From Jiella avicenniae (GTDB taxonomy: Bacteria > Pseudomonadota > Alphaproteobacteria > Rhizobiales > Rhizobiaceae): a stretch of 64,000 nucleotides of DNA. The position numbers and the translations under genes were made by a program. This document shows, in pieces, positions 40,894-64,000 of the stretch. Within the stretch, counting starts at the first letter, position 1. Every line of letters starts with the position of its first letter. The stretch lies in the NCBI RefSeq assembly GCF_021390325.1, contig NZ_JAJUWU010000017.1, positions 62,001-126,000 of the forward strand. Reading direction: 5' to 3'. The notes beneath the pieces were generated by a model. That model searched no databases and was not told the origin of the DNA. It saw only the letters and a list, made by a program, of their open reading frames with translations.

Positions 40894-40936
40894 AAATGCA
40901 TTTTATATTGACGTCGGAGATTCCGTCTCATACTCT
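40894..40936 (+). promoter_or_regulatory. Promoter and operator of the branched-chain-type ABC operon
   Basis: A perfect palindrome AAATGCATTT (40894-40903) lies immediately upstream of -35 TTGACG (40908-40913), a 17-base spacer and -10 TACTCT (40931-40936), 38 bases before the start codon. The palindrome is repeated upstream of 49731, and the FCD-GntR gene at 48205 is the natural candidate for its regulator. Confidence 0.6.
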
Positions 40937-40973
40937 GCCCCCAGCCAGTGAGACATGCATGGGAGGAGTGCAG

Positions 40974-42182: not shown

Positions 42183-42191
42183 CGTCGGCGT

Positions 42192-42220
42192 CGCGGCACC
42201 TGCATGAGCCAGGTGCCGCG
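42192..42220 (+). terminator. Attenuator-like hairpin after the ABC binding protein
   Basis: CGCGGCACCTG (42192-42202) pairs perfectly with CAGGTGCCGCG (42210-42220), 7-base loop, followed by CCAGATATTTTC, a weak T-rich tail. Ten bases after the stop codon and inside the operon, so partial termination or message protection is likely. Confidence 0.6.
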
Positions 42221-42256
42221 CCAGATATTTTCAATCAGGCAGAGCAGGAGACGGGT

Positions 42257-43006: not shown

Positions 43007-43010
43007 TATC

Positions 43011-47309: not shown

Positions 47310-47319
47310 GGATTTCGCG

Positions 47320-48138: not shown

Positions 48139-48204
48139 TATTTTGCACTATTTCGCTCCGACGGCGGTGTAGAACCGACGCATGGTGGACGGAAGGCCGG
48201 GACG

Positions 48205-48840: not shown

Positions 48841-48911
48841 GGCAGGCGTTCCTCGTTGCTCGATCCGGCGGACCTGCCTCCGCAAACGGATAGTGCAGCA
48901 AGGAGAAGAAC

Positions 48912-49490
48912 ATGGCTTCCGATAGCATCCTGCTCGTCATGGACATGCTGAACGACCTCGTCCATCCCGATGGAATGGGCGGCAAATCCTACGTTCCGCT
49001 CTGCCGCGAACGCGGCGTCTACGACAACACGAAGCTCGCCATCCGCCGCGCCCGCGAGGCCGGCATGATGGTCGGCTATGTGCGGGTCGGGTTCTCGCCC
49101 GACTACGCCGAATGCCCGCCGGGCTCCCCCGTCTTCTCGAAGGCACGCGACAACAAGATCTTCACCCTCGGCAGCTGGGGAACCGAAGTCTATTCGGATT
49201 TCGCGCCGCAGAAGGGCGACCCCGACATCGTCAAGCATCGGGTCAGCCCGTTCTATGGCACCAAGCTCGAGCCCCTGTTGCGGGCCCAGGGCATTCGCCG
49301 CCTGATCCTCACCGGCGTCTCCACCAACGGCGTCGTGTCCGCGGCGGTGCGCGAGGGGCACGACCGCGACTATCAGTGCGTCGTCCTCGAAGACTGCTGC
49401 GCCGGCGCCACCACCGAAGAGCATGACTTTGCTCTCGCCGGCCTGAAACGATACGCGACCATCACCAAGGCCGCAGACGCGCAGTTCTAA
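48912..49490 (+). CDS. Isochorismatase-like protein without catalytic cysteine
   Basis: 192-residue protein of the isochorismatase/cysteine hydrolase superfamily. Asp11 (LLVMDMLND) and Lys108 (DIVKHRVSPFYGT) of the usual triad are present, and LILTGVSTNGVV is the loop before the third residue. Where amidases and nicotinamidases have Cys (TNxCV), this protein has Val141. As in isochorismatase EntB, which also lacks the Cys, a thioester mechanism is excluded; water-based hydrolysis of an ether or ester, or a non-enzymatic role, is possible. Strong GGAGAA site before ATG. Follows GntR by 71 bases. Confidence 0.85.
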   Translation: MASDSILLVMDMLNDLVHPDGMGGKSYVPLCRERGVYDNTKLAIRRAREAGMMVGYVRVGFSPDYAECPPGSPVFSKARDNKIFTLGSWGTEVYSDFAPQKGDPDIVKHRVSPFYGTKLEPLLRAQGIRRLILTGVSTNGVVSAAVREGHDRDYQCVVLEDCCAGATTEEHDFALAGLKRYATITKAADAQF

Positions 49491-49504
49491 CGCCGACCTC
49501 TCAA

Positions 49505-49522
49505 ACAATGCATTAAATGCAC
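49505..49522. promoter_or_regulatory. GntR-type operator, distal site of the dehydratase operon
   Basis: ACAATGCA (49505-49512) then AAATGCAC (49515-49522), containing the palindrome AATGCATT (49507-49514). It uses the same pair of words as 40764-40785. About 110 bases upstream of the operon promoter. Confidence 0.5.
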
Positions 49523-49614
49523 CCAAAAGCGGGATCGCTTCGCGCTCTTGTGGGGATTTGCGGTGCTTATTGCGTGAATCAGCCGAGAAATCGCGTTTTC
49601 TTGCAATGATCGTG

Positions 49615-49645
49615 TTGACCTGAGAAAATAAAATGCATTAAATTA
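49615..49645 (+). promoter_or_regulatory. Promoter and overlapping operator of the dehydratase-CoA operon
   Basis: -35 TTGACC (49615-49620), 17-base spacer, -10 TTAAAT (49638-49643). The palindrome AATGCATT (49632-49639) in TAAAATGCATTAAATTA overlaps the -10, as expected for a repressor. Start codon about 88 bases downstream. Confidence 0.6.
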
Positions 49646-49730
49646 TCGATGACGCGCTGGGTTGACCCGGCATTGCCCAGGGGCGCGGACCACCGTGCCG
49701 GGCACGAACCCGAGAGAGAAGGGACCACCC

Positions 49731-50951
49731 GTGAGCATGGCTGACACGAAGGAAGCGACCAAGGAGAGCATGGGCGGCGCCCCGGCGGAGGGGAAGATCA
49801 CCGACGAGGCGGTCGCCGCCGCCCGCGACATGATCGGCCTGCATCTGCGCCCCGAAGGCCCTTATCTGCAGGATGCGACCACCGACACGCTGCGCAACTG
49901 GTGCAATGGCATCGGCGACCTCAACCCGCTCTACCGCGAGCAGGAATACGGTCGTAATTCCCGCTATGGCGGCCAGCTCGCCCATCCGATGTTTCCGATG
50001 GCCTTCGGCTGGGTCGGCCGGACGCGCTGGGGCCTGCCGGGGGTTCACGGATTCTACGCCGGAAACGACTGGGAGCTTTACCGCCATATCCGCCCCGGCG
50101 ACCGGATCAGCGCGATCGAGCGCGTCGTCGGCGTCCAGGAGAAGGAGAGCAAGTTCTCCGGGCGGCTGGTCCTGCAATATGTCGAGGCGACCTATTCCAA
50201 CCAGCGCGGCGAGATCGTCGCCCGCGCGCTCGGCACCTGCACGCGCCACGAACGCAAGGCAGCCCGCGACACGGGCAAGTACAAGGACATCAAGCCCTAC
50301 GAATACACCGCGCAAGAATACGAGGCCTTGGACGAGGCGATCATCCGCGAGGTGGAGCTCATCCGTGGCGGCAAGGTCCGCTACTGGGACGACGTCACCG
50401 AGGGCGAGACGCTCGATCCGATCGTGCGCGGGCCGCTGTCCTTGATGGATACGATGGGCTTTCTCGTCGGTTGCGGCCGCGGTCACACGCACGGCGTCGT
50501 CTTCCAGGCGGCCGTCAAGCATCCGGGCCACTTCTTCCGCAATCCGGAAGCCGGCGGCGGCATCGAATATACCGGCATCGGCCACCACCGCGAGAGCACG
50601 GCCAAGGAGGTCGGCGTTCCCGGCGTCTACGACTACGGCCCGCAGCGCTCGTCCTGGATGGCCTCGCTGGTCACCAACTGGATGGGCGATGCCGGCTTCC
50701 TGAAGCGTGTGCGCACCGAAATGCGGCGCTTCAACACCATGGGCGATTCCACCTGGTGCAAGGGCAAGGTGAGCCGCAAATACGTGAAGGACGGTCACGC
50801 TCTCGTGGATATCGAGATCTGGGGCGAGAACCAGCGCGGGGAGATCACCACGCCGGGCGTCGCCACCGTCATCCTTCCCAGCCGCGATCCCAACCTGAAG
50901 GTCTCCTTCGATGGCAGCGCCCTCGATCTGGAACTTCCGGTCGTGCGGTGA
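49731..50951 (+). CDS. MaoC/FAS1-like double-hotdog acyl-CoA dehydratase
   Basis: 406-residue protein with an N-terminal FAS1-like dehydratase hotdog (about 25-185) and a C-terminal MaoC-like hotdog (about 215-400). WCNGIGDLNPLYREQEYG holds the hydratase-2-type motif GDxNPL with Asp63, but Tyr68 where the classical motif has catalytic His; the FAS1-like branch often differs there. PMFPMAFGWV and YAGNDWELYRHIRPGDRI follow. Conserved Trp/His-rich stretch RGHTHGVVFQAAVKHPGHFF lies in the second half. GTG 49731 has AAGGG seven bases upstream; ATG 49737 is the alternative. First gene of the CoA operon; likely hydrates or dehydrates a branched acyl-CoA. Confidence 0.82.
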   Translation: MSMADTKEATKESMGGAPAEGKITDEAVAAARDMIGLHLRPEGPYLQDATTDTLRNWCNGIGDLNPLYREQEYGRNSRYGGQLAHPMFPMAFGWVGRTRWGLPGVHGFYAGNDWELYRHIRPGDRISAIERVVGVQEKESKFSGRLVLQYVEATYSNQRGEIVARALGTCTRHERKAARDTGKYKDIKPYEYTAQEYEALDEAIIREVELIRGGKVRYWDDVTEGETLDPIVRGPLSLMDTMGFLVGCGRGHTHGVVFQAAVKHPGHFFRNPEAGGGIEYTGIGHHRESTAKEVGVPGVYDYGPQRSSWMASLVTNWMGDAGFLKRVRTEMRRFNTMGDSTWCKGKVSRKYVKDGHALVDIEIWGENQRGEITTPGVATVILPSRDPNLKVSFDGSALDLELPVVR

Positions 50952-51085
50952 TCGCACGGGCATGATGCCGGTCGGGCGCAAGTCTTTCCGGGCGCGATCA
51001 TGCGCAAGAACAAGACGTTGGAGCGGGATTCTAGGTCCGTGTGGCCACCCGCTCCTGCGCGGACCGACGAGGGAGGCGTCTGGTG

Positions 51086-52252
51086 ATGCAGCATGACAAA
51101 CCACTTGCCGGTATCCGGGTCGTCGAGCACGCGGCCGGTGTGGCCGGAGCCTGGGCCGGGCGCCTGCTTTCTGCGATGGGCGCCGACGTCGTCATGGTCG
51201 AACCGCCCTCGCTCTGCCCGCTGCGCAACGAGGCGCCCTTGTTCCGGCAGGGCGGCAGCGCGCTCTTCGCCTATCTCGCGGCGGACAAGCGCAGCGTCAT
51301 CTGCGACCTCGAGACCGAAACCGATCGCGCGGCGCTGGACGCGCTTCTTTCCAGTTCGCACATTCTCATCGACGACACGCCGTTGGCAGATCGGGAGGGT
51401 CTCGGTCTGGACGAGGCGGCGATTGCGTCGCGCCATCCCGATCTCGTCCATCTCTCCGTGCTGCCCTTCGGCGCATCCGGCCCGAAGGCGGACTGGAAGG
51501 GAGCGGAAATAAACCTCGTTCATGCGGGCGGGGAGGGCTATCTCCTGCCGAACGGTCTGTCCGTCGACCTCTTTCCCGACCGCCCGCCGCTGAAGATCGG
51601 CGGCCATTTCGCCGAAATGCAGGGGGGTGCGGCGGCCGCCCTTGCGGCCTTGGCGGCGCTCTGGTCCGGCCAGGGCCAGTATGTCGATGCGTCGATCCAG
51701 GATGCCAATGTCGCGGTGGGGGCCTTCGCGTTGCAGCGCCATGGCGACGGCTCGGTCGAGCATCGCCATACCCGCTCGTTCCGCTTCGGCGGGGTGATCG
51801 AATGCCGCGACGGCTATGTCGAGCTTCTCACCCTGGAAGAGCGGCAATGGAAAGCCCTCGTCGAGCTGATGGGCTCGCCCGAATGGGCGTTGGACGAAGC
51901 GCTCGACGACGCGACCGAACGCAGTGCGCGCGGCCAGGACATCAATCGGCATATCCGGGAATGGGCTCGTCATCACGACGTGGAAGAGTTGGTCGCCCGA
52001 GCCCAGAAACTCGGCGTCCCCATGGCACGCTACAACACGCCGGAGCAGATCCTGGAAGGCGCCCACGAAAACGCTCGCGGGATTTTCCAGACGCTCGCAA
52101 TGCCTGGCGTCGGCGACGTGAAGGTTCAGACCGCGCCCTTCCGCTTCGGCGACGAGCCCTTGAGATTGGGCGCCGCAGCGCCGAAGCCCGGGGCCGATCA
52201 GGCCCTGCTCGACGCCCGGTTTGCGGCGACGAAGAGAGAGGCCACGGCATGA
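51086..52252 (+). CDS. CaiB/BaiF CoA-transferase subunit with Glu in place of Asp
   Basis: 388 residues. LAGIRVVEHAAGVAGAWAGRLLSAMGADVVMVEPP is the family start. At the catalytic position the usual GDxxxG reads FAEMQGG: Glu177 replaces Asp. Its stop overlaps the next CaiB gene (ATGA). Paired, overlapping CaiB genes are known for two-subunit enzymes such as Chloroflexus succinyl-CoA:malate CoA-transferase (SmtAB), so this could be the non-catalytic or modified subunit. ATG 51086 (GGGAGG nine bases upstream) or GTG 51083. Confidence 0.88.
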   Translation: MQHDKPLAGIRVVEHAAGVAGAWAGRLLSAMGADVVMVEPPSLCPLRNEAPLFRQGGSALFAYLAADKRSVICDLETETDRAALDALLSSSHILIDDTPLADREGLGLDEAAIASRHPDLVHLSVLPFGASGPKADWKGAEINLVHAGGEGYLLPNGLSVDLFPDRPPLKIGGHFAEMQGGAAAALAALAALWSGQGQYVDASIQDANVAVGAFALQRHGDGSVEHRHTRSFRFGGVIECRDGYVELLTLEERQWKALVELMGSPEWALDEALDDATERSARGQDINRHIREWARHHDVEELVARAQKLGVPMARYNTPEQILEGAHENARGIFQTLAMPGVGDVKVQTAPFRFGDEPLRLGAAAPKPGADQALLDARFAATKREATA

Positions 52253-53442
52253 AACCGCTCGCCGGCATCCGCATCGCCGACTTCACCGTCCACGCTGCAG
52301 GACCTTTCTGCACCCACATGCTCTCGCAACTCGGCGCGGAATGCATCAAGATCGAAAGCGCTCACCGACCGGATATCTTCCGCAAGCCCCACACGGTCTA
52401 TGGGCGGGCGGGGCCCGCGACCTTCGATCAGGTGGCTTCCAACAAACTCTCCGTTCGCCTGAACCTCAAGCATCCCGAGGGCGTCGCCTTGGCCAAGCGC
52501 CTGGTCGGGATCGCGGACGTTGCGGCCGAAAGCTTCCGCGCCGGCGTGATGAAGAGGCTCGGGCTCGGCTATGAGGCGTTGCGCGCCGTGAAGCGTGACA
52601 TCGTCATGGTCTCGGTGTCCTCCTCCGGCCAGACCGGACCCGACAGCCATTATGCGGGCTATGCGCCGCTCTTCGGCGCATGGGGCGGGCTGGGGCATCT
52701 GACGGGCTACGAGGATGGCCCGCCGGTCGAGATGCGCCACGTCATGGATCATTCCGTCGGCATGAATGCCGCGCTCGCCACCGTCGCCGCCCTTCACAAA
52801 CGTCGGCGCAGCGGCGAGGGAAGCCATGTCGACGTGGCCGCGCGTGAAGTGGCCTCTTCGCTCGTCGGCGAGGCCCTGACGGCGAGTTCGACCGGCATCG
52901 CCATGCGCCGGGCGGGCAATATCGACCCACAGCGGGCGCCGCATGGCCTCTACGCGAGCCGAGAAGGCGATTGCTGGCTCAGCATCGCCGTTTCCACCGA
53001 CGCCGAATGGCGGGCCCTGGCCGAAGCCATGGGAGAGCCGCAGCTCGCGCGTGATCCGCGCTATGGGACCGCAGAAGCCCGGATCGCCGTACGCGGCGAG
53101 CTGGACGAGATGGTCGAAGCCTGGACACGGCAGATCGACGCCGAGGACGCGGCACGTCGTCTCCAGAAAGCGGGCGTGCCGGCGCACGTCTCCTGGCGGG
53201 CGGCCGACATCGCCGAGGACCCTCACATGCGGGCGCGCGGTGCCGTCGTGCCGGTTCGGGAGACGGATGGCCGCGAGCGCATGGCGGTCGGCTTCCCAGC
53301 CCGCTTTTCGGGGAGTGACGCCCCCGGGATCGAGCGGGGCACGCCGGGGCTCGGGGAGCATGAGGATTACGTTTATGGCGAGCTTCTCGGCATGGGGCGG
53401 GCCGAGCGCGAACGGCTGATCGAGACAGAGGTCATCTACTGA
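52249..53442 (+). CDS. CaiB/BaiF CoA-transferase subunit with catalytic Asp
   Basis: 397 residues. LAGIRIADFTVHAAGPFCTHMLSQLGAECIKIES start; Asp167 in MRHVMDHSVGMNAAL is the predicted nucleophile. Normal C-terminal closing region (VGFPARFSGSDAPG, PGLGEHEDYVYGELLGM). Translationally coupled to the Glu-variant partner upstream, and followed by a mesaconyl-CoA hydratase-like gene. The two together should load CoA on a di- or hydroxy-acid. Confidence 0.9.
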   Translation: MKPLAGIRIADFTVHAAGPFCTHMLSQLGAECIKIESAHRPDIFRKPHTVYGRAGPATFDQVASNKLSVRLNLKHPEGVALAKRLVGIADVAAESFRAGVMKRLGLGYEALRAVKRDIVMVSVSSSGQTGPDSHYAGYAPLFGAWGGLGHLTGYEDGPPVEMRHVMDHSVGMNAALATVAALHKRRRSGEGSHVDVAAREVASSLVGEALTASSTGIAMRRAGNIDPQRAPHGLYASREGDCWLSIAVSTDAEWRALAEAMGEPQLARDPRYGTAEARIAVRGELDEMVEAWTRQIDAEDAARRLQKAGVPAHVSWRAADIAEDPHMRARGAVVPVRETDGRERMAVGFPARFSGSDAPGIERGTPGLGEHEDYVYGELLGMGRAERERLIETEVIY

Positions 53443-53467
53443 CCGAAACGAAAGCGAGAAATCCGAG

Positions 53468-54334
53468 ATGAACACCCTGGCGGCCATGTCCGAAGACGAC
53501 GGCTCCGAGGCGATCGGCCGAACCGAGAGCCGCGTGGAAGCGATCCCGGCCGAGCGCGTCGCGGCTCTCGCCGCCACGCTCGACATCGCCAGTGCGCCCA
53601 TGGCCGGCGAGCCACTGCCGCCGGGATGGCACTGGCTGTTCTTCAATCCCTTCGTTCGGCGAAGCGAGATTGGCGTGGACGGGCATCCGAAGCGAGGCGG
53701 CTTTCTGCCCGATGTCGGCCTGCCGCGCCGGATGTGGGCCGGCGGACGGCTCACCTATCATGCCGAGTTGCCGGTGGGCGCGACGGCGGAAAAGGAAAGC
53801 ACGATCCTCGACGTCGTGCCGAAATCCGGACGGGGCGGACGGCTGGTCTTCGTGACCGTCCGCCATCGAATCTCAGCCGGCGGCACGCTCTGCGTCGAGG
53901 AAGAGCAGGACATCGTCTATCGCGAAGCCCCTGCAACCGACGCGCCGAAGCCCGTTCCGGCCGCGGCCCCCGAAGGAGCCGAATGGTCCGAAGAGGTCGT
54001 GCCCGACCCGGTCCTCCTGTTTCGCTATTCCGCTCTCACCTCGAACGGGCACCGCATCCATTACGACCAGCCCTATGCCACCGGCGAGGAAGGCTATCCC
54101 GGCCTCGTCGTGCATGGCCCTTTGATCGCCACCCTGTTGCAGGGCTTCGCGCAGCGCTGCCGGCCCGATGCGGCCTTGGCGCAGTTCTCGTTTCGCGGCA
54201 TGGCGCCGCTCTTCGTCGATCGGCCGTTTCACCTCGAAGCCTCCGCCGGCGACACACCCGAAACGCTCGCGCTGTGGGCGCGTGGCCCGGACGGCGAACT
54301 GGCGATGAAGGCCGACGCCACGTTCCGGACGTGA
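53468..54334 (+). CDS. Mesaconyl-C4-CoA hydratase-like (HTD2/Meh family) protein
   Basis: 288-residue double-hotdog hydratase. GWHWLFFNPFVRRSEIGVDGHPKRGGFLPDVGLPRRMWAGG is characteristic of the family of Chloroflexus mesaconyl-C4-CoA hydratase and of itaconyl-CoA hydratases; SNGHRIHYDQPYA and YPGLVVHGPL hold the active-site His/Asp region of the second hotdog. It would add water to mesaconyl- or itaconyl-type CoA to give (S)-citramalyl-CoA, the substrate of CitE-type lyases, and the next gene encodes one. GAGATG-poor ribosome site; start ATG 53468, with an internal ATG at residue 7. Confidence 0.85.
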   Translation: MNTLAAMSEDDGSEAIGRTESRVEAIPAERVAALAATLDIASAPMAGEPLPPGWHWLFFNPFVRRSEIGVDGHPKRGGFLPDVGLPRRMWAGGRLTYHAELPVGATAEKESTILDVVPKSGRGGRLVFVTVRHRISAGGTLCVEEEQDIVYREAPATDAPKPVPAAAPEGAEWSEEVVPDPVLLFRYSALTSNGHRIHYDQPYATGEEGYPGLVVHGPLIATLLQGFAQRCRPDAALAQFSFRGMAPLFVDRPFHLEASAGDTPETLALWARGPDGELAMKADATFRT

Positions 54335-54344
54335 GGGGCGGGCG

Positions 54345-55151
54345 ATGAGCGAGCCGCGCAGCTACCTCTTCGTTCCCGGTCAGCGGCCGGACAGATTCGC
54401 CAAGGCTGCGGGGTCCGGAGCGGACGCGGTGATCCTCGATCTGGAAGACGCCGTCGGCCCGGATGCGAAGGACGAGGCCCGCGCCCATGTCGTCGACTGG
54501 TTCCGCCAGGGTGGGCAGGGGATCGTGCGGATCAACGGTCGCGGCACGCCGTGGCATGCGGACGATCTCGCCGCGCTGGCCGATATCACCACCGCAGACA
54601 TCATGCTCCCGAAAGCGGAGCCGGAGGCACTGGCCCATCTGACCGGGCATCTGCCCGGCCGATCCGTGATCGCGCTGGTGGAGACGGTGGCGGGGCTCGC
54701 CACGCTGCGGAACTCCGTGACGATCTCCGGCGTCACGCGGCTGGCCTTCGGCAATCTCGACTTCGGGGCCGATGCCCGTATTCCGGAAAGTGGCGCCGAG
54801 CTCGATCCGGCCCGCTTCGAGATCGTCGTCGCCTCGCGTCTCGGGGGGCTCGCCCGCCCCATCGATGGTGTGACGACCGACTTTGCCGATAAACAAGCCA
54901 TCGAGAAGGACGTCTTGCGAGCCCGAGCCATGGGCTTCGGTGCCAAGCTGTGCATTCATCCGGCCCAGGTCGAAGCCGTCAATGCGGGTTTTTCTCCGAC
55001 ACCGGGCGAAGTGGAGTGGGCAAAGCGGGTCGTCGCGGCGCTGGAGGAAGCAGCCGGGTCGGTGGTTCAGGTGGACGGCAAGATGGTGGACCGTCCGCTG
55101 ATCGAGCGGGCGCGCCAGATCCTCGAAGGCGCCCGGCACACGACATCCTGA
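54345..55151 (+). CDS. CitE-like CoA-ester lyase (HpcH/HpaI family)
   Basis: 268-residue Mg-dependent TIM-barrel lyase. RSYLFVPGQRPDRFAKA, ADAVILDLEDAVGPDAKDEAR, RINGRGTPWHADDL, the metal Glu in VIALVETVAG and Asp in FGNLDFGAD, and KLCIHPAQVEAVN match malyl-, beta-methylmalyl- and citramalyl-CoA lyases. It should split a 3-hydroxyacyl-CoA into acetyl- or propionyl-CoA and pyruvate or glyoxylate. Eleven bases after the hydratase gene; last enzyme before the TAXI-TRAP transporter. Confidence 0.92.
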   Translation: MSEPRSYLFVPGQRPDRFAKAAGSGADAVILDLEDAVGPDAKDEARAHVVDWFRQGGQGIVRINGRGTPWHADDLAALADITTADIMLPKAEPEALAHLTGHLPGRSVIALVETVAGLATLRNSVTISGVTRLAFGNLDFGADARIPESGAELDPARFEIVVASRLGGLARPIDGVTTDFADKQAIEKDVLRARAMGFGAKLCIHPAQVEAVNAGFSPTPGEVEWAKRVVAALEEAAGSVVQVDGKMVDRPLIERARQILEGARHTTS

Positions 55152-55236
55152 CGCCTCGACCGGGCGTCGGAGGAGGAGCGACGGCTTGCCGGCTGCGCCG
55201 GCGGGAAACGACAAGAACCATATCAGGGAGGAAAAC

Positions 55237-56196
55237 ATGAAACGGATCATCGGCAGCACAATTGCCGCCTTGCTTCTGGCCTGCGGGACCGGCCATGCTG
55301 AGGATATCCTCTTCGGCTCCACATCGGCCTCGTCGAGCCATTACGGCTACATCGTCGCCGTCGGCAAGCTGATCAACGAGAGCGGTTCCGACATCAATGC
55401 GACGGTGGTCGAGACGGGCGCCGCGATGGACAACATCCGGCGCATGGAACGCGGCCAGATGGATCTCGGCATCATCACCACCAACGTTCTCCAGCATGCC
55501 GTCGCCGGCACGCAGGAATTCGATGGTCGCGCCCAGGATCTGGCGCTCCTGTGGGTCTATCTGCCGGCCCCGCAGAACGTGATCATGCGAGCCGATTCCG
55601 GCGTGGAGAGCCTGTCGGCGCTCGGCGGCGTCCGCCTCAATCCCGGCATCAAGGGATCGGCCACCGAGACGACCACCGAAGCGGTTTTCGAGGTTCTCGA
55701 CATCGAGCCGGACTATGTGCGCGGCTCGACCACGGACATCGTCGATTCGATCAAGGACAACCGGCTGGCGGGCTATGTGAAGTCCGGTTCGGCGAATACC
55801 CTCGACAGTTCGACGATCGATCTGGCCACCACGACGCCGATCCGGGTGCTCGGTCTCGACCAGAAGCAGGCCGACGCCATTCGCGAGAACATGCCGGACA
55901 TTTCCATCGTGGACGTCGCCGCGGGCGTCGCCGAGGGTGTGCCCGCCTACACGACGTGGAGCTTCGGCGTGGGCGTGGCCGCCACGTCCGAAATGTCCGA
56001 CGATACGGCCTACAAGATCGTCAAGGCGGTGATGGAGGACAAGTCCGTCCAGGGCAATGCGATGGCCGGCGTCAAGGGCGCGGATCTCGCGCGGTTGACG
56101 CTCGACTATGGCACTGTGCCGCTTCATCCGGGCGCCGTGCGATGGTTCGAGGAGAACGGGTATACCGTTCCCGACCGGTTGAAGCCGCAGCAGTAG
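55237..56196 (+). CDS. TAXI-family TRAP solute-binding protein
   Basis: 319 residues with signal peptide ending near GHA-ED (about 21). ILFGSTSASSSHYGYIVAVGKLINE, VVETGAAMDNIRRMERGQMDLGII, LRLNPG-like GGVRLNPGIKGSATETTTEAVF and TTWSFGVGVAATSEMSDDTAYKIVKAV are the TAXI pattern (no DctP-type Arg motif). GGGAGG precedes ATG 55237. The fused permease follows after only 10 bases, without the hairpin seen in the other transport operons of this window. Confidence 0.9.
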   Translation: MKRIIGSTIAALLLACGTGHAEDILFGSTSASSSHYGYIVAVGKLINESGSDINATVVETGAAMDNIRRMERGQMDLGIITTNVLQHAVAGTQEFDGRAQDLALLWVYLPAPQNVIMRADSGVESLSALGGVRLNPGIKGSATETTTEAVFEVLDIEPDYVRGSTTDIVDSIKDNRLAGYVKSGSANTLDSSTIDLATTTPIRVLGLDQKQADAIRENMPDISIVDVAAGVAEGVPAYTTWSFGVGVAATSEMSDDTAYKIVKAVMEDKSVQGNAMAGVKGADLARLTLDYGTVPLHPGAVRWFEENGYTVPDRLKPQQ

Positions 56197-56206
56197 TCGT
56201 GACGCC

Positions 56207-58069
56207 GTGCTCCATTTTCCGTCACCGGGAAAGGCGTTGGCGCTCCTGACGGGTGCCTTCGTCTTCTACACCGCGGCCTTCGGCGCGTTCGAAGGCCTCA
56301 TCCAGCGGGCGATTTTCCTCGCTTTGGTCATCTGCCTCGGCTTTGCGATCTATCCGCTGGGCCAGGGGCGGTCGTGGCGGTGGCTTGGACTGGTGGTCGA
56401 CCTCGCTCTGATGGCGATCAGCGTTGCGGCCTGCGTCTATGTCGTCGTCAATTACGATCGCATCATGACGGAGCTGCCCTGGGCGACGCCGCTCGACATG
56501 GTCCTGACGGCGGGGCTCGTCCTCGCTGTGCTGGAACTGGCGCGCCGGACCGTCGGGGTGATCTTTCCGCTCCTGGTGCTGGTGGGCCTCGCCTATGCCT
56601 ATTTCGGCGCATCGCTGCCCGGAGCGCTGCGGCATCGCGGCTTCGACGCCTATTACATTACCGAAACGGTCTTCCTCGGCGATCTGGGCATCTGGGGCAT
56701 GCTGACGGGCGTCGCCGCGACGGTGATCGCGGCCTTCGTCCTGTTCGGCGCGCTGCTTCTCCATACCGGCGGCGGTCAGGCCTTCATCGATCTCGCCATG
56801 CGGCTGGGTGGCAGGCAGGCGGGCGGTGCCGCCAAGATCGCGACCATCGCGTCGGGACTGTTCGGCATGATTTCCGGCTCGTCCGTCGCCAATGTCGCGA
56901 CGACCGGCAATTTCACCATCCCGATGATGATCCGGCTCGGCTATCCGCGTCCGTTCGCCGCTGCGGTGGAAGCGGTCGCCTCGACCGGCGGCCAGATCGC
57001 GCCGCCCATCATGGGCGCGGCGGCTTTCGTCATGGCGGAAATCGTCGGCGTCCCCTACACGGCGATCATCAGCGCAGCGCTTTTGCCGGCGATCCTCTTC
57101 TACGTTTCCGTCTTCGTGACCGTTCATCTCGTTTCCGTCCAGCGGGGCCTCGCGCTCGTGCCTGCACAGGAGTTGCCGCCATGGCGCCAGATCCTGGCGG
57201 CGCGGCGGATCGGGCCGGTCGTTGCCGCGCTCACCGGCCTCGGCATCGGCTTCTGGATGGGGCGCTCGGTCTCGACATCCGCCTTCTACGGCATCGTCGG
57301 CCTGCTCGCCGCCTTCGTGCTGTCGCAAGCCGGGCGGCTGTCACTGCGGGAGATGGGGCAGCGCGTGCTCACGGGATTCGAGGATGCCGGGCGGGGCCTC
57401 GTCATCATCGGCGTCCTCCTGGCGGGCGCGCAGATCCTGGTCTCGATGGTCAATCTGACCGGCGCGGGGGTGGCGCTTTCCACCGCGATCGTCGCCTGGG
57501 GCGGCAGTTCCATGGCGCTGGTGGCGCTGCTCGTCGGCGTCGTCTGTCTGGTGATGGGGATGGGCCTGCCGACGACGGCGGCCTATGTCCTGGTCGCGGC
57601 GGTCTTGGCGCCGGCCCTGACCGAGGTCGGCGTGCCGCTCCTCACGGCGCATCTCTTCGTCTTCTATTTCGCGACCATTTCGGTGATCACCCCGCCGGTC
57701 TGCGTCGCCGTCTTCGTCGGGGCGGGGATCGCCAACACCGGATGGATGGCCGCTGCCGGCGAGGCGGTGCGGCTGGGTGCCATGACCTACGTCGTGCCCT
57801 TCCTCCTGCTCATCTATCCGGGCATGGTGCTGGAGGGCGGCAACCTCGCCGTCGTCGACGCTCTTCTCGCGGGTGTCGTCCTCGTCTTCGCCATTCCGAC
57901 GCTGCTTTCGCGCGTGCCGCTGTCCGGCTGGCGGTGGTTGGACATCGTGCTTCTCAGTACCGCGATCGCCCTCGCCATCTGGCCGCATCCATCGACGCCC
58001 TTCATCGCTGCCGCGCTGCTCGCGTTCGGCTGGCTCATGGGTCGAAACCGCAGGCAGGTCGCGACATGA
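56207..58069 (+). CDS. TRAP transporter fused small and large permease (DctQM)
   Basis: 620-residue inner-membrane protein typical of TAXI-TRAP systems: the first four helices (about 15-120) correspond to DctQ, the remaining 12 or so to DctM. GMISGSSVANVATTGNFTIPMMIRLGYPRPFAAAVEAVASTGGQIAPPIMGAAAF and VMGMGLPTTAAYVLVAAVLAPAL are the large-subunit motifs. GTG start 56207 with a poor ribosome site, perhaps coupled to the receptor gene. Stop overlaps the AtuA-like gene (ATGA), showing that the transported compound feeds that protein's pathway. Confidence 0.92.
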   Translation: MLHFPSPGKALALLTGAFVFYTAAFGAFEGLIQRAIFLALVICLGFAIYPLGQGRSWRWLGLVVDLALMAISVAACVYVVVNYDRIMTELPWATPLDMVLTAGLVLAVLELARRTVGVIFPLLVLVGLAYAYFGASLPGALRHRGFDAYYITETVFLGDLGIWGMLTGVAATVIAAFVLFGALLLHTGGGQAFIDLAMRLGGRQAGGAAKIATIASGLFGMISGSSVANVATTGNFTIPMMIRLGYPRPFAAAVEAVASTGGQIAPPIMGAAAFVMAEIVGVPYTAIISAALLPAILFYVSVFVTVHLVSVQRGLALVPAQELPPWRQILAARRIGPVVAALTGLGIGFWMGRSVSTSAFYGIVGLLAAFVLSQAGRLSLREMGQRVLTGFEDAGRGLVIIGVLLAGAQILVSMVNLTGAGVALSTAIVAWGGSSMALVALLVGVVCLVMGMGLPTTAAYVLVAAVLAPALTEVGVPLLTAHLFVFYFATISVITPPVCVAVFVGAGIANTGWMAAAGEAVRLGAMTYVVPFLLLIYPGMVLEGGNLAVVDALLAGVVLVFAIPTLLSRVPLSGWRWLDIVLLSTAIALAIWPHPSTPFIAAALLAFGWLMGRNRRQVAT

Positions 58070-59394
58070 AAACGGTGCGCATCGGAGCGGGGGCGGGGTT
58101 TGGTGGCGACCGGATCGATCCGGCGGTGGCGCTCGCGCGGGATGGAGCGCTGGACTATCTCGTCTTCGAGTGCCTCGCCGAACGCACGATCGCCTTGGCG
58201 CAGCTTGCCCGGGTCGCCGATCCGTCAGAGGGCTACGACAAGCTCCTCGAACGGCGCATCCGCGCCGTTCTTCCCGACTGTCTGAGGAACGGCACGCGGA
58301 TCGTCACCAATATGGGCGCGGCCAATCCATGGGCGGCGGCCCAAAAGGTGGCCGAGACGGCCGCGGATATGGGGCTCACGGGCGTCAAGGTCGCCGCCGT
58401 CCTCGGAGACGACGTGCTCGGCCACGTCGCTCCTTATCCCCTCGACGACACCGGGATGCCGGCGGAAGCTTTGGGCACCCGCCTCGTCTCGGCCAACGCC
58501 TATATCGGAAGCGCGGGTATCGTCGACGCGCTCCAGGCCGGAGCCCAGGTCGTGATCTGCGGCCGAGCGGCCGATCCCGCCCTGTTTCTGGGGCCGCTCG
58601 CCCATGAATTCGGCTGGGCGTCCGATGACTGGGAGCGGCTCGGGCGGGGCACGCTGGTCGGCCATCTTCTCGAATGCGCGGCCCAGATCACCGGCGGTTA
58701 TTTCGCCGATCCCGGCCTCAAGGACGTGCCGGATCTCGCCAATGTCGGCTATCCCCTGGCGGAGGTGGGCGAAGACGGCAACGCCGTCATCACCAAATTG
58801 CCGGGTACCGGCGGTCAGGTCACCCTTGCCACCTGCACCGAGCAGCTTCTCTACGAAATCCACGATCCGGCCCGCTATCTGCAGCCCGACGTCGTCGCGG
58901 ATTTCTCGAATGTCGATTTCACCGAGATCGGGCCGGACCGCGTGGCGGTCAGCGGCGGGGCAGGGCATCCCAGACCCGAAACGCTCAAGGTTTCCGTCGG
59001 AAGTCGCGATGGCTGGATCGGCCAGGGAGAGATTTCCTATGCCGGTCCCGGCGCCGTGGCGCGCGGCCGTCTGGCCGCCGACATTTTGAAGGAGCGGCTT
59101 CTGCCCTTCCAGAACGCCATCGCCGCCTATCGGTCGGACCTGATCGGCGTCGATTCCATTCTTCCGGGAGACAGCGATGCCCCGCCGCCGCGCGAGGTTC
59201 GGCTGCGGTGCGCGGCGCGATGCGACAGCCGCGAGGTGGCGGAAACCGTCGCGGACGAAGTGGAGACGCTTTACCTCTGCGGCCCCGCCGGCGGCGGCGG
59301 CGTGACCCGCAGTCTCAGGGAAGTCATCGGTATCCGCTCGACCTTCATGCCGCGATCGGAGGTCGAGGTGTCCGTGCGCATCGTGGAGTCGTGA
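58066..59394 (+). CDS. AtuA-type acyclic terpene utilisation protein, N-terminal unit (DUF1446)
   Basis: 442-residue DUF1446 protein. Family motifs: RIGAGAGFGGDRIDPAVALA, LDYLVFECLAERTIALAQL, TRIVTNMGAANPWAAA, VVICGRAADPALFLGPL, GHLLECAAQITGGYFADPG, ELTEVGP-like FTEIGPDRVAVSGG. AtuA is needed for citronellol/geraniol catabolism in Pseudomonas but its reaction is not established. There the protein is one chain of about 590 residues; here the C-terminal ~100 residues are encoded by the next gene. Coupled to the TRAP permease. No geranyl-CoA carboxylase genes are present, so the substrate is probably different. Confidence 0.87.
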   Translation: MKTVRIGAGAGFGGDRIDPAVALARDGALDYLVFECLAERTIALAQLARVADPSEGYDKLLERRIRAVLPDCLRNGTRIVTNMGAANPWAAAQKVAETAADMGLTGVKVAAVLGDDVLGHVAPYPLDDTGMPAEALGTRLVSANAYIGSAGIVDALQAGAQVVICGRAADPALFLGPLAHEFGWASDDWERLGRGTLVGHLLECAAQITGGYFADPGLKDVPDLANVGYPLAEVGEDGNAVITKLPGTGGQVTLATCTEQLLYEIHDPARYLQPDVVADFSNVDFTEIGPDRVAVSGGAGHPRPETLKVSVGSRDGWIGQGEISYAGPGAVARGRLAADILKERLLPFQNAIAAYRSDLIGVDSILPGDSDAPPPREVRLRCAARCDSREVAETVADEVETLYLCGPAGGGGVTRSLREVIGIRSTFMPRSEVEVSVRIVES

Positions 59395-59395
59395 C

Positions 59396-59695
59396 ATGAA
59401 ACTGCATGAGATCGCCCATGGCCGCACCGGCGACAAAGGCACGACGTCCAATATCTCCGTCATCGCCTATCACGCGAAAGACTGGCCGCTGATCGAGGCC
59501 CATGTCACGGCCGAGCGCGTGGCCGCGATCTTCGACCGGCACGTCACCGTCACGCGCTACGTGCTGCCCAAACTCCATGCGTTGAATTTCGTGGTGGAGG
59601 GCGCACTGGAGGGCGGCGTAACCCGATCCGTGGCGCTGGACGCCCATGGCAAGTCCCTCGGCTTCGCGGTGCTGGAGATGGAACTCCCGGCCTGA
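59396..59695 (+). CDS. AtuA C-terminal unit as a separate small protein
   Basis: 99 residues matching the C-terminal domain of full-length AtuA-type proteins: MKLHEIAHGRTGDKGTTSNI start, VTRYVLPKLHALNFVVEGALEGGVTRS centre. The ATG lies one base after the stop of the N-terminal unit in a different frame, so the two are made together from one message and presumably associate. The arrangement is an open question between natural split and frameshift; the clean ATG and coupling favour a genuine split. Confidence 0.85.
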   Translation: MKLHEIAHGRTGDKGTTSNISVIAYHAKDWPLIEAHVTAERVAAIFDRHVTVTRYVLPKLHALNFVVEGALEGGVTRSVALDAHGKSLGFAVLEMELPA

Positions 59696-60242
59696 GCGAT
59701 TTCTCTTCGCCCATCTCTGCCGGCCTTCCGGAGCCCGGTTTCGATGGGGTTCGATCTCCCTTCCAAGCCTTGTGCGCGGTCCCGGTTGGCAACTTCCTCG
59801 GCGACCTTTTTCGGGGTTTGTCGAGGATCACCGCGGACGGATGAGGGACACGGCGCGAAGGATGGCGGCTTCGAAGCACTCGTCGGTCGGCGCGCCTGGC
59901 GATCCGCTCGAACTCCTGGAACTTGCAGAAGAAATTTCGATGAGATGAGGCCGCTTGCAGAGGGGGTCGTCGATCCGTAGCGGCGAGGTCCGCTTGGATG
60001 CTGGGCGATCGCCGCATGGGGCCGCGGCCGGCGAATTCCGGGTTTGGCGTAAGCCATTACCCCGGGCGGCTAATTATAATTGGAAGAATTCCAGGTTTGC
60101 AGCGCCATTCGTTTTCCTAGCTCTTCCCGAGAACTTGAAACGAGCGATCAGACAGAGTGGCGAACGAGCGCGCCTCGATCTCCCGAGTTCCGGGGCCAAA
60201 CGCCCCGGATGTGATCGCCCCGGCTAGCGGAGGATGGGGCTC
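59696..60242. other. Long intergenic region before the oxidoreductase operon
   Basis: 547 bases without a gene I can support; short frames on both strands resemble no family. A TATAAT-like -10 in AATTATAATT lies at 60075-60080. A hairpin CCGGGGC (60190-60196) / GCCCCGG (60202-60208) sits 34 bases before the start codon of the Fe-S subunit and could influence its translation or transcription; no riboswitch is recognised. Confidence 0.5.
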
Positions 60243-60917
60243 ATGGGCCATCACCGAGACGAAAGCGACGAGACCGGCGGCTTGAAGCGCGCCAAGATCA
60301 GCCCGGAGGTCACGCGGCGCGGGTTTCTGGGCGGAACCGCGACGGCGGGGGCGACGGCCCTCGCGGGCATCGCCGGAAGCGCGCAGGAAGCGCTCGCCCA
60401 GGAGATGGATGCGGCGGGCGGCGAGACCGTCGATGTCAGCCTCGTCATCAACGGCGTGTCCTACGAGCGAAGCCTCGATGCGCGCACGACGATCCTCGAC
60501 CTCTTGCGGGAGGAACTCGACCTGACCGGCACCAAGGTCGGCTGCAATCACGGCCAGTGCGGCGCCTGCACCGTGCTGATGAACGGCACGCGCATCAATT
60601 CCTGCCTGACGCTCGCCGCCATGGCTGACGGCGCCCGGATCACCACGATCGAGGGCCTCGCTGAGGGCAATGGCGATCTTCACCCGATGCAGGCCGCCTT
60701 CCTCGAACATGACGGCTTCCAGTGCGGCTACTGCACGCCGGGCCAGATCGTCTCGGCGATCGGCTGCGTGAAGGAAGGCCATGCCGACAGCGAGGCCGAG
60801 ATCCGCGAATACATGTCCGGCAATCTCTGTCGCTGCGGCGCCTACAAGGGCATCACCGAGGCGATCATCGAGGCCCGCGATGCCACGCGCTCCAGCGACG
60901 TCGGAGGTGCATCATGA
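60243..60917 (+). CDS. paoA: Periplasmic aldehyde oxidoreductase, 2Fe-2S subunit
   Basis: 224-residue PaoA/YagT-like subunit of a molybdenum hydroxylase. A Tat signal (TRRGFLGGTATAGATALAGIAG, about 24-46) exports the folded complex. Two 2Fe-2S clusters: plant-type CNHGQCGACTVLMNG with a later Cys in INSCLTLA, and CGYCTPGQ plus NLCRCGAY. ATG 60243 is chosen because GGAGG (60229-60233) is nine bases away; the ATG at 60234 directly abuts it. Stop overlaps the FAD subunit gene. Oxidises aldehydes, often aromatic, in the periplasm. Confidence 0.92.
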   Translation: MGHHRDESDETGGLKRAKISPEVTRRGFLGGTATAGATALAGIAGSAQEALAQEMDAAGGETVDVSLVINGVSYERSLDARTTILDLLREELDLTGTKVGCNHGQCGACTVLMNGTRINSCLTLAAMADGARITTIEGLAEGNGDLHPMQAAFLEHDGFQCGYCTPGQIVSAIGCVKEGHADSEAEIREYMSGNLCRCGAYKGITEAIIEARDATRSSDVGGAS

Positions 60918-61972
60918 AGCCCTTTCGCTATCAGGCACCCGGCTCGGTCGACGCCGCCGTGGAGGCGGTCGATCCCATGGGCATCGCCGGCCAAGGCGGG
61001 GCGTTCCTGGCGGGCGGCACCACGCTCATCGATCTGATGAAGCTGCATGTGGTGACGCCACCGAGCGTCACGGACGTGAAGAATCTCGGCCTCGATACGA
61101 TCGAGGAGAGCGGCGGCGAGGTGCGGATCGGCGCGCGCGTCACCATGGCGGAGGCTGCCGAGCATCCAATCTTCGTCGAACGAGCCCCGGCGCTGTCCGA
61201 TGCCCTCTGGAAGGCGGCGAGCCCACAGCTTCGCAATGTCGCGACGCTCGGTGGCAATGTGCTCCAGCGCACCCGCTGCCCGTATTTTCGCGACAATGTC
61301 AGCCCTTGCAACAAGCGCGATCCTGGCTCCGGTTGCGCGGCGATTGGCGGCATCAACCGGCTGCTGGCCGTTCTCGGCACCTCCGAAAACTGCATCGCCA
61401 CCTATGCCGGCGATTTCGCCAATGCGCTGATCCTGTTCGACGCGACGGTGGAAACCCAAAGGGCGGGCGAGGGACCACGTCAGATCCCCTTCGACGATCT
61501 CCACGTCCTGCCGGAAGATCATCCCGAGCGCGAGACCATGCTCGGCGACGACGAGCTGATCACCGGCTATCGCTTCGACCTGCCGGATTGGGCACGCCGC
61601 TCGGTCTATGTGAAGGCCCGCGACCGCGAGTCCTATGCCTTTGCGCTGGCTTCGGCCGCCGTGGCCCTCGATCTCGACGGCGACACGATCCGGGAGGCGC
61701 GCGTGGGACTCGGCGGTGTCGCGACCGTGCCCTGGCGAGCGCGCGAGGCGGAGGACTTCCTTCAAGGCAAGACGGTGAGCGAGGACACGGCGCTCGAAGC
61801 CGGGCGCATCGCCTTCGAAGGGGCCAAGGGCTACGAACACAACGCCTTCAAGATCCCGCTCGGGCGGCAGGTCGTCGCCAAGGCGATCCTCGACGCGGCG
61901 GGAATGGATATCTCCGGCGCGTCCGACAGCGGCGCCGGTGGGACATCCGCCACCAGTGAAGGAGCCAACTGA
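60914..61972 (+). CDS. paoB: Periplasmic aldehyde oxidoreductase, FAD subunit
   Basis: 352-residue PaoB/YagS-like flavoprotein. FLAGGTTLIDLMKL and LRNVATLGGNVLQRT bind FAD. An insertion with Cys122, Cys132 and Cys141 (RCPYFRDNVSPCNKRDPGSGC) and Cys160 matches the extra [4Fe-4S] cluster of E. coli PaoB. Carried by the Tat signal of the small subunit; it has none itself. Overlaps both neighbours by ATGA-type junctions. Confidence 0.92.
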   Translation: MKPFRYQAPGSVDAAVEAVDPMGIAGQGGAFLAGGTTLIDLMKLHVVTPPSVTDVKNLGLDTIEESGGEVRIGARVTMAEAAEHPIFVERAPALSDALWKAASPQLRNVATLGGNVLQRTRCPYFRDNVSPCNKRDPGSGCAAIGGINRLLAVLGTSENCIATYAGDFANALILFDATVETQRAGEGPRQIPFDDLHVLPEDHPERETMLGDDELITGYRFDLPDWARRSVYVKARDRESYAFALASAAVALDLDGDTIREARVGLGGVATVPWRAREAEDFLQGKTVSEDTALEAGRIAFEGAKGYEHNAFKIPLGRQVVAKAILDAAGMDISGASDSGAGGTSATSEGAN

Positions 61973-64000
61973 TGGCCGACGAAACCATGACATTCGACCA
62001 GACGCCGACCCAGGACGTCGAAACGCAGAACAAGGTGGCAAGCGCCGAACGCGCCGCGGAGAACGCCAATGTCGGCGCCGCGATCAGTCGCGTGGACGGG
62101 CCGCTGAAAGTGACCGGCCAGGCGCGTTATGCGGCGGATTTCTCCGTGCCGAACCCGCTTTATGCCCATCTCGTCATTTCGACCGTCGGCAAGGGGCGGA
62201 TCACCGGCATCGATGATGGTGCCGCGCGCCGGGTGAAGGGTCTGCGCGAAATCTACAGCCACGCCAACAAGCTCGACAACGGTTCGGCGCCCTTCTTCGC
62301 CGCCGGCGGTCAGGCGCAGCAGTCCTGGGAGCCTTTCGCCGAACCGGATGTGCGCTTTTACGGCGAGACGGTCGGTCTCGTCGTTGCCGAGACGATCCTC
62401 GGCGCGCGGGAAGCGGCGGCCGAACTCGTCTTCGAATACGAGTCGCAGGATCCTGCCGCCGTCTTCAGTGCATCGGGCGTCGAGCGCCAGGAGATGCCCG
62501 ACAAGTCCACGACCAAGGGCGATTTCGACAGCGCCTTCGAGGCCGCGCCCGTGAAGATCGACTCCGACTACGAGACGGCCCCGAACGTCCACAATGCCAT
62601 GGAGCTCTTCGCCACCACGGCTCACTGGGTCGGCGACAAGCTGACGGTCTACGTCCCGAGCCAGTGGGTGAAGGGTTTTCAGGTCGGGCTTGCCGAGGAG
62701 CTCGGCATCGACGAGGCCAATATCGAAGTCGTCTGCCCCTTCGTCGGCGGCGGCTTCGGCGGCAAGGGTTCGCTGTTCACCTGGGTTTCGCTGATCGCGG
62801 CCGCCTCGCGCGATCTCGGCCGTCCGGTGAAGCTCTACGTGACCCGCGAACAAGGCTTCACCACCGCCTCGTTCCGGGCCGAAACGCGGCAGAGCGTCCG
62901 CCTCGGCGCTGCGCAGGACGGCGTCTTCCAGGCACTCGAACATACCGGCGAGGAGCTGACCTCCAGGGCCGACAACTATTTCGTCAACGGCCAGGACGCG
63001 ACGATCCGCATGTATCAGGCGGATGCAATCCGCACGAAGCTGACGACCGTCCATGCCGATCGCCAGACGCCGGGCTTCATGCGAGCCCCGGCCGAAACGC
63101 CCTATTTCTTCGGGCTGGAATCGGCCGTGGACGAGATCGCCCGTGAGCTCGACATGGACCCGGTCGAACTCAGGATCAAGAACGACACCATGGTCGACCC
63201 CGTCGACGGCGTGCCCTACACCTCGCGGTCGCTGAAGGAGTGTTTCCGCCAGGGAGCCGAAGCCTTCGGCTGGTCGGACTACACGCCCGAGATCGGCTCG
63301 AAGAACGAGGGGGAATGGCTGATCGGCTGGGGTGTCGCGACGTCCACCTATCCGACGCAGATGTCGCCCTGCACGGTGCGGATCCATCTCGACGTGTCCG
63401 GCGAGGCGCGGCTGCAGGTGGCAAGCCACGATGTCGGGACGGGCGCCTATACGGTGCTCACCCAGGCGGTCGCCGACGAGCTCGGCATCCCGGTCGAAAA
63501 GGTGCGGGTCGAACTCGGCGACAGTCGTCTGCCACCCGGCACGATCGCCGGGGGCTCGATCTCGACCGCCTCCAACGTCTCGGCGATCATGATCGCCTGC
63601 GAGCGCATCCGCCAGCGCCTCGGCCTCGAGCGCGGCGGCGACAACGATCTGGCGGCGGCGTTCGAGAATTTCGGCCAGGGCGGGATCGAGGAGTATGCGG
63701 AGTGGAACCCGCCCGGTGCCAAGAAGAACGCGCCGAAAACGCTCTACAACGGCAAGGTCACGATCGTCGGCGGGCCGGAGGAAAGCTATACGGCCTTCGC
63801 CTTCGGCGCGATCTTTTCCGAGGTGAGGATCAACCGGTTCACCCATGAAATCCGCGTGCCGCGCATGACCGGGGCCTTCGCCGCCGGGCGGATCATGAAC
63901 GCCAAGACCGCCAAGAGCCAATATCTCGGCGGCATGGTCTGGGGCATCGGCCACGCGCTCCTCGAGGCGGCCGAGGTCGATCCGCGTACCGGCGCCTACA
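61972..64000 (+). CDS. paoC: Periplasmic aldehyde oxidoreductase, molybdenum subunit (partial)
   Basis: First 676 residues of a PaoC/YagR-like large subunit of about 730 residues; the C-terminus lies past the right edge. SRVDGPLKVTGQARYAAD is the xanthine oxidase family start; FVGGGFGGKG binds molybdopterin cytosine dinucleotide, and FMRAPAETPYFFGLESA and SHDVGTGAYTVLTQ are further cofactor contacts. The catalytic Glu near the end is not in view. No chaperone gene (paoD) is visible, though it may follow. Confidence 0.93.
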   Translation, partial: MADETMTFDQTPTQDVETQNKVASAERAAENANVGAAISRVDGPLKVTGQARYAADFSVPNPLYAHLVISTVGKGRITGIDDGAARRVKGLREIYSHANKLDNGSAPFFAAGGQAQQSWEPFAEPDVRFYGETVGLVVAETILGAREAAAELVFEYESQDPAAVFSASGVERQEMPDKSTTKGDFDSAFEAAPVKIDSDYETAPNVHNAMELFATTAHWVGDKLTVYVPSQWVKGFQVGLAEELGIDEANIEVVCPFVGGGFGGKGSLFTWVSLIAAASRDLGRPVKLYVTREQGFTTASFRAETRQSVRLGAAQDGVFQALEHTGEELTSRADNYFVNGQDATIRMYQADAIRTKLTTVHADRQTPGFMRAPAETPYFFGLESAVDEIARELDMDPVELRIKNDTMVDPVDGVPYTSRSLKECFRQGAEAFGWSDYTPEIGSKNEGEWLIGWGVATSTYPTQMSPCTVRIHLDVSGEARLQVASHDVGTGAYTVLTQAVADELGIPVEKVRVELGDSRLPPGTIAGGSISTASNVSAIMIACERIRQRLGLERGGDNDLAAAFENFGQGGIEEYAEWNPPGAKKNAPKTLYNGKVTIVGGPEESYTAFAFGAIFSEVRINRFTHEIRVPRMTGAFAAGRIMNAKTAKSQYLGGMVWGIGHALLEAAEVDPRTGAY

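Follow-up and report, generated by a model that had tools for sequence, protein, structure and literature searches.

Close to the 3' end of a 64,000-nucleotide stretch of the Jiella avicenniae genome (positions 62,001 to 126,000 of contig NZ_JAJUWU010000017.1; this whole stretch is called the window below, and coordinates refer to it), two adjoining genes encode an AtuA-type core protein and a small partner. Taking sequence comparison and structural models together, we consider it probable that this pair forms a C-C lyase with two subunits, a member of the AtuA/CmlA superfamily similar to citramalate lyase CmlAB. A wider suggestion, which we hold with somewhat less than even confidence, is that the unit of transporter, AtuA gene and small gene, often joined by a LysR-type regulator, may represent an unrecognised widespread catabolic module, in which a coenzyme A (CoA)-independent two-subunit carboxylate lyase would convert an imported tertiary hydroxy acid into free acetate and an oxo acid. 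The unit spans Alpha-, Beta- and Gammaproteobacteria and a haloarchaeon.

The gene pair

The two genes are as follows:

58066..59394, plus strand: AtuA-type core subunit, PF07287, 442 aa (Pfam E 2.8e-157)
59396..59695, plus strand: small subunit, PF23544 (AtuA_ferredoxin), by profile comparison homologous to CmlB/DUF4387, 99 aa (Pfam E 3.5e-36)

A preliminary description of this DNA had presented the core and the C-terminal unit as separate genes one base apart, and its coordinates, lengths and spacing are correct. The single base 59395 lies between the genes, whose reading frames differ, GGAG stands 7 bases 5' of the ATG of the small gene, and the last 4 bases of a TRAP permease gene are shared with the start of the core. 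The core matches PF07287 over model positions 1-436 of 437 (524.4 bits, cut-off 22.8) and the small protein matches PF23544 over positions 1-112 of 113 (124.4 bits, cut-off 27); the E values of both therefore exclude chance matches, and a full-length core above the cut-off with a PF23544 partner one base downstream places the pair in the PF07287 superfamily. PF07287 and PF23544 are two distinct Pfam families, and we read the name of the latter, 'AtuA ferredoxin-like domain', as referring to a ferredoxin-like fold and not to an iron-sulfur cluster. Each of the two families is matched once in the whole 5.17 Mb genome (assembly 97.65% complete, 52 contigs).

Homology of both subunits to citramalate lyase

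For the core, AlphaFold gave a model (36 sequences, mean predicted local distance difference test score, pLDDT, 93.5) that was matched in the VIA comparison to chain A of the PDB entry 9evf, which is CmlA, with Z 31.1, a root-mean-square deviation (rmsd) of 3.6 and 402 of 442 residues aligned, the next-best match (Z 10.4) being restricted to residues 315-421; Foldseek gave the same chain at E 3.2e-25. The model of the small subunit (30 sequences, mean pLDDT 91.7) was matched by VIA to chain B, CmlB, with Z 11.2, rmsd 2.2 and 95 of 99 residues aligned, the next match reaching Z 7.6. Thus two proteins that were searched singly found their best matches in chains of one solved complex. This entry carries the title 'Citramalate lyase - ADP - pyruvate complex' and its chains are named AtuA family protein/CmlA and DUF4387/CmlB; in 9erq and 9evf the AtuA-family protein is named citramalate lyase subunit A, and all that we say of these two entries is taken solely from PDB chain names and titles. 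No literature on the CmlAB structure was recognised under citramalate lyase (since 2016), DUF1446, AtuA or DUF4387. As a separate observation, weak Foldseek rows liken the ferredoxin-like stretch of the core, residues 313-423, to PII-like SbtB folds, which bind nucleotides.

Sequence searches of the PDB found CmlA at E 0.036 with the single core sequence and at E 7e-9 with a profile made from seven split cores. The same search with the small subunit gave one unconvincing pilin match (E 0.093), and its profile A2 returned nothing. By direct profile comparison in hhalign, 25 DUF4387 sequences were aligned to 28 split PF23544 sequences (28 of 81) at 95.8% and E 6.8e-9 (the value for a single comparison) over 105 columns, and to 65 split and fused PF23544 sequences at 91.9% and E 7e-7, and the controls on this 65-row set, 12 column shuffles and one reversal, stayed at or below 0.9%. 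As judged from these profiles, the PF23544 small subunit is homologous to DUF4387, the family of CmlB.

Conservation across 37 split, 37 fused and 25 CmlA-type rows is 100% at each of seven core residues (R167, D170, E203, C204, Y263, E264 and K308), and the invariants of 30 split small subunits include R10, G12, D13, K14, G15, R54, D82, H84, G85 and K86. No residue discriminating split from fused proteins passed the filter of our conservation comparison (37 rows of each). The window pair shares with CmlAB both chain folds and also the gene arrangement, CmlA-type cores likewise having a separate small gene (18 of 18 in the genomes searched); it differs from CmlAB in that its small subunit belongs to PF23544 and not to DUF4387, and in its linkage to a transporter.

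Separate and fused genes among relatives

The preliminary description spoke of one protein having been split, and this part of it is not supported. We surveyed every PF07287 place in 299 genomes of the window's phylum (taken as Pseudomonadota) and paired it with its neighbours at a distance of up to 2500 bases, since partial matches shift the ends, the second pieces of eight CmlA-type cores being removed before counting. Every one of the 60 AtuA cores is paired with a single small partner, which is a separate gene in 41 cases and fused in 19. The 42 strong cores are all accompanied by PF23544, as a separate gene in 23 and fused in 19, and the 18 weak, CmlA-type cores by DUF4387, always as a separate gene. 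A separate PF07287-PF23544 gene pair occurs in 22 of the 299 genomes, the window's own counted. One PF23544 gene (L182, 8274-8822, minus strand) has no adjacent AtuA core and overlaps an amidase open reading frame (ORF).

In a tree of 80 core rows (53 genome-survey loci, another 14 from among the 80 named split relatives introduced below, the window and 12 of 25 CmlA-type rows; AtuA of P. aeruginosa PAO1 is not among them), 30 two-gene rows including the window form one clade (support 98/100) and 36 of the 37 fused rows another (96/99), the 12 CmlA-type rows forming a side of their own (100/100). The two-gene row L162 and the fused row L150 fall outside both clades on long branches, and a constraint of all fused rows to a single origin was not rejected (approximately unbiased test, p-AU 0.148). 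Because separate genes are commoner and the CmlA-type outgroup is in the two-gene state, fusion would more likely be the derived condition, the order at the base of the core tree being poorly supported; the two-gene arrangement is the usual and probably the older form.

With frames just one base apart, a sequencing error or a recent frameshift might be suspected of having broken up a single gene. We give practically no weight to this explanation, as core and small gene are separate in all 80 named relatives (the top 80 among at least 579 stretches that were confirmed) and fused in none. The junction spacing in these 80, for which the nearest suitable start codons were taken as small-gene starts, runs from -14 to 57 bases with 13 distinct values, and the window's small gene comes with a GGAG and a start codon of its own. 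An artefact of this kind is very unlikely.

Genomic context of the relatives

Split and fused forms were compared by their neighbours, named for split loci by Pfam on one representative each and by tblastn. A CitMHS-type gene adjoins the pair in 38 of the 80 split relatives, TAXI-TRAP genes in 18 and a TctC receptor gene in 16; with one further CitMHS (L086), 73 of the 80 have a carboxylate-transporter-type gene next to the pair. According to ORF clustering, a LysR-type regulator cluster lies within the examined stretch of 55 of the 80. Seven split loci have no such transporter gene; two of them (L087, L105) have ABC transporter genes and L090 ends at the contig end. In L087 (8614-13067) amidases flank the AtuA pair on both sides, a possible clue to use of an amide of the substrate. 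Two betaproteobacterial metagenome-assembled genomes carry glycosyltransferase-28-like genes directly 5' of the pair (L051, 5132-6463; L062, 522-1868).

Fused genes were sampled at 14 loci from relatives in the same family, with gene names taken from one representative per gene cluster. In 11 of these loci biotin carboxylase and carboxyltransferase genes both lie within about 2.5 kb of the fused gene, and the remaining three have enoyl-CoA hydratase only. A tblastn search with the biotin carboxylase and carboxyltransferase of a fused-AtuA locus (E 1e-10, at least half of the query) found neither gene in any of the 80 split loci, ten of which are shorter than 15 kb, nor in the window; of the two queries only the carboxyltransferase was searched across the genome, where it gave a single 32%-identical protein on another contig. 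The earlier claim that the Atu carboxylase partners are absent agrees with these results.

The same comparison decides against the pair being the AtuA of the terpene pathway (3-hydroxy-3-isohexenylglutaryl-CoA lyase) after loss of its partners. Public records do label the relatives as 'acyclic terpene utilization AtuA family protein', and terpene AtuA and the fused relatives have the same two Pfam families in the same order as the window pair. However, the fused relatives are single proteins with about 39 residues between the domains (L113), whereas the window has two genes in different frames; it belongs to the split clade, apart from the fused and mostly carboxylase-linked one, and its genome has no close carboxyltransferase. 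Clade and context lead us to reject this origin, and we find it barely credible.

Haloarchaea provide two further settings. In Haladaptatus a two-gene copy follows a CitMHS-type gene, and a quick tree of 36 rows puts it in the split clade. A degradative 3-hydroxy-3-methylglutaryl-CoA (HMG-CoA) reductase precedes the AtuA pair in Halalkalicoccus and Salinigranum, the Halalkalicoccus reductase matching TIGR00532 at 434.6 bits (cut-off 259.95) and the core of this organism standing outside the window's clade in the same quick tree. On the plasmids of Halalkalicoccus sp. FCH27 (L213, 2342-6669) and Salinigranum marinum (L215, 4001-6964) the reductase overlaps AtuA, which is followed by the small partner. 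Such a gene order suggests HMG-CoA as the substrate there, and these loci could possibly encode a mevalonate breakdown route with an AtuA-type HMG-CoA lyase. Among six plasmid loci with the degradative reductase the AtuA pair stands beside one (two of seven with L213 included), and at one other an annotated HMG-CoA lyase lies nearby. The 3-hydroxy-3-methylglutaryl cleavage enzyme that forms acetyl-CoA and acetoacetate belongs to a family that is not known to be related to AtuA. By tblastn, that reductase is absent from the window and from every other locus in the set searched. The Ruegeria pomeroyi megaplasmid (L219, 1-9269) carries a degradative HMG-CoA reductase with TAXI-TRAP genes on one side and DctP-type TRAP genes on the other, and the annotation of the 9.3 kb seen includes no AtuA gene.

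The transporter, the linked module and other neighbours

Upstream of the pair the window contains the following genes:

56207..58069, plus strand: TRAP transporter fused permease (TIGR02123 508.6 bits, cut-off 320.65)
55186..56196, plus strand: TAXI family TRAP solute-binding protein (TIGR02122 145 bits, cut-off 84.35; ORF starting with TTG)
54345..55151, plus strand: HpcH/HpaI CoA-ester lyase, CitE/RipC-like, linked module (PF03328 E 1.3e-27)
53468..54334, plus strand: MaoC/FAS1_DH-type hydratase, Meh-like, linked module (PF13452 E 4.1e-5, 24.2 bits, cut-off 22)
52243..53442, plus strand: CoA-transferase family III, second copy, linked module (PF02515 E 7.1e-96)
51041..52252, plus strand: CoA-transferase family III, first copy, linked module (PF02515 E 1.4e-70)
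49662..50951, plus strand: MaoC/FAS1_DH-type dehydratase, head of the linked module (PF13452 E 8e-20)

The position behind a TAXI-TRAP permease, as first described, is upheld by the two TIGR matches, both above cut-off. For the TAXI protein an internal ATG near 55237 is, from the translation, a likelier start than the TTG. The CoA-ester lyase reaches 163.1 bits with NCBIfam RipC, under the cut-off of 375.

TAXI-TRAP and then the pair thus come after two CoA-transferases and after a hydratase and a lyase that resemble Meh and CitE/RipC, respectively. Besides the window, six loci with this module were found: two, Salipiger abyssi plasmid pPABY7 (L207) and the fetched part of Arenibacterium (L032), have the larger cluster with TAXI-TRAP and the pair, and four, Agrobacterium larrymoorei (L208), Qingshengfaniella (L209) and two genomes from the same taxonomic order (L210, L211), have it without them in the stretches fetched. 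The three module-associated cores (window, L032, L207) are mutual nearest rows in the quick tree, and therefore the pair may have joined the module once. The set of TRAP transporter and pair is an attachable unit relative to the CoA-transferase/hydratase/CitE module, which is itself linked to the pair as an optional and not an essential part. The preliminary description looked to CitE/Meh products for the substrate; these enzymes are indeed present in the window, but a role of the pair as an essential step of their pathway is unsupported, since four of the six further module loci lack the pair. Should a citramalyl-CoA-like ester be what the module cleaves, pyruvate and an acetyl unit would be the products of both routes.

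The module belongs to a catabolic cluster at 40896-55151 that contains a liv-type ABC transporter, a short-chain dehydrogenase/reductase, a 3-hydroxyisobutyrate-dehydrogenase-like protein, a metallo-beta-lactamase-fold protein, GntR, an isochorismatase-like hydrolase, MaoC, two CoA-transferases, MaoC and the CoA-ester lyase. Clusters of this type are conserved on plasmids, one of them a plant-tumour plasmid, and in other genomes (L207, L208, L209, L210, L211). Within it, the ORF 48135-48893 has no Pfam match at E 0.001, and the overlapping frame 48205-48840 encodes a GntR/FCD regulator, hence it is the likelier gene. On the other side of the pair, PaoABC-like molybdenum aldehyde oxidoreductase genes (60234-63999) begin 538 bases past the small gene; their iron-sulfur subunit bears a Tat signal, and they are probably a separate unit.

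Proposed enzyme and competing explanations

The idea that AtuA chemistry is still unknown, with which the pair was first described, is overtaken by the citramalate lyase entries 9erq and 9evf and by the ThnQS lyases. According to the relevant passages of PMC4847356, AtuA cleaves beside a tertiary alcohol, a free carboxylate leaves and CoA stays on the oxoacyl part; the analogous 3-hydroxy-3-methylglutaryl cleavage makes acetyl-CoA and acetoacetate, in contrast to the AtuA type (relevant part of PMC12016498). In the section of the same 2025 review that concerns us, which cites unpublished results, the 'AtuA-like lyases' ThnQ and ThnS are given the ring cleavage in anaerobic naphthalene degradation; both are described there as AtuA-like lyase, encoded by adjacent genes and cutting next to a tertiary alcohol, their substrate is a CoA ester, and we liken them to the window pair by this description only (PMC12016498). 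Citramalate is cleaved to pyruvate and acetate, and in 2015 a DUF1446 gene was noted in an enterobacterial glutamate fermentation cluster in which the fate of citramalate was unclear (both from passages of PMC4682846). It would be logical to suggest that CmlAB fills this gap.

On this basis we propose that the 442-aa core carries the active site, with R167, D170, E203, C204, Y263, E264 and K308, and that the 99-aa CmlB-related subunit assembles with it and completes the enzyme. The cut would most likely fall beside the tertiary alcohol of a 3-hydroxycarboxylate, a di- or tricarboxylate, by a retro-aldol/retro-Claisen reaction, yielding an oxo acid together with a free carboxylate, for instance acetate, in the way that citramalate lyase makes acetate and pyruvate from citramalate. 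For the substrate being a free acid we see an even chance; such an acid would probably be imported by the co-encoded TAXI-TRAP transporter, and the upstream CoA-transferase/hydratase/CitE-like module could end in similar products. Citramalate and 3-hydroxy-3-methylglutarate are our two leading guesses, each by itself unlikely.

A number of results speak against so close an analogy with CmlAB. Over the structural alignment the core is only 19% identical to CmlA, and the pair stands in a clade other than the CmlA-type one, so that the reaction could differ. In Foldseek the small model did not have 9evf_B in its top 50 rows, the best row having E 0.11 and none reaching E 0.001, and it was the second look with VIA that put 9evf_B first; when the 25 DUF4387 sequences are compared just with 37 C-terminal domains of fused proteins, the match is weak (43%, E 2.4e-4); and in a second alignment K308 is only near-invariant (90% or more). 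The proposed reading does not account for the ADP in 9evf. As to the substrate, no neighbour gene fixes it, and two-gene copies also occur with CoA enzymes, namely the haloarchaeal HMG-CoA reductase and ThnQS; therefore the split state alone is no sign of a free-acid substrate. A rule that split means CoA-free was dropped, as pairs occur behind HMG-CoA reductase and ThnQS acts on a CoA ester.

Some of these points could be taken to mean that the pair is no lyase at all and that a binding, regulatory or differently acting protein has kept the fold, the more so as no enzyme assay for the window's clade was found. The seven polar residues invariant in split, fused and CmlA-type rows and the two-component arrangement retained for all 60 cores make this improbable in our opinion. 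A more serious competitor, which we still regard as rather unlikely, is a C-C lyase whose substrate would be a CoA thioester formed by the adjacent family III CoA-transferases: in the window, Arenibacterium and Salipiger the pair and its transporter come directly after two CoA-transferases, hydratase and CoA-ester lyase, AtuA and ThnQS are reported to act on CoA esters (in the parts of PMC4847356 and PMC12016498 concerned), and in two haloarchaea the context of the degradative reductase suggests an HMG-CoA lyase role. Against it stand the four module loci without the pair (L208-L211) and the majority of the 80 relatives, in which the pair adjoins a transporter-type gene and the CoA-transferase module is missing. 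A CmlAB-like lyase linked to a transporter is the interpretation we prefer.

Implications

The surprise that was central to the preliminary description dissolves, since the two-gene form is usual and the family has structural and biochemical precedents; its view of two coupled genes in a simpler setting is supported. What stays of interest is a widespread transporter-linked subfamily whose small subunit is recorded as hypothetical. Our analysis offers a testable function for a pair recorded as 'acyclic terpene utilization AtuA family protein' and 'hypothetical protein', joins PF23544 and DUF4387 into one small-subunit family, as profile comparison suggests, and makes the solved CmlAB complex usable as a template. 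Were the substrate to be identified, many proteobacteria would be credited with a metabolic route that deals with a tertiary hydroxy acid on its own.

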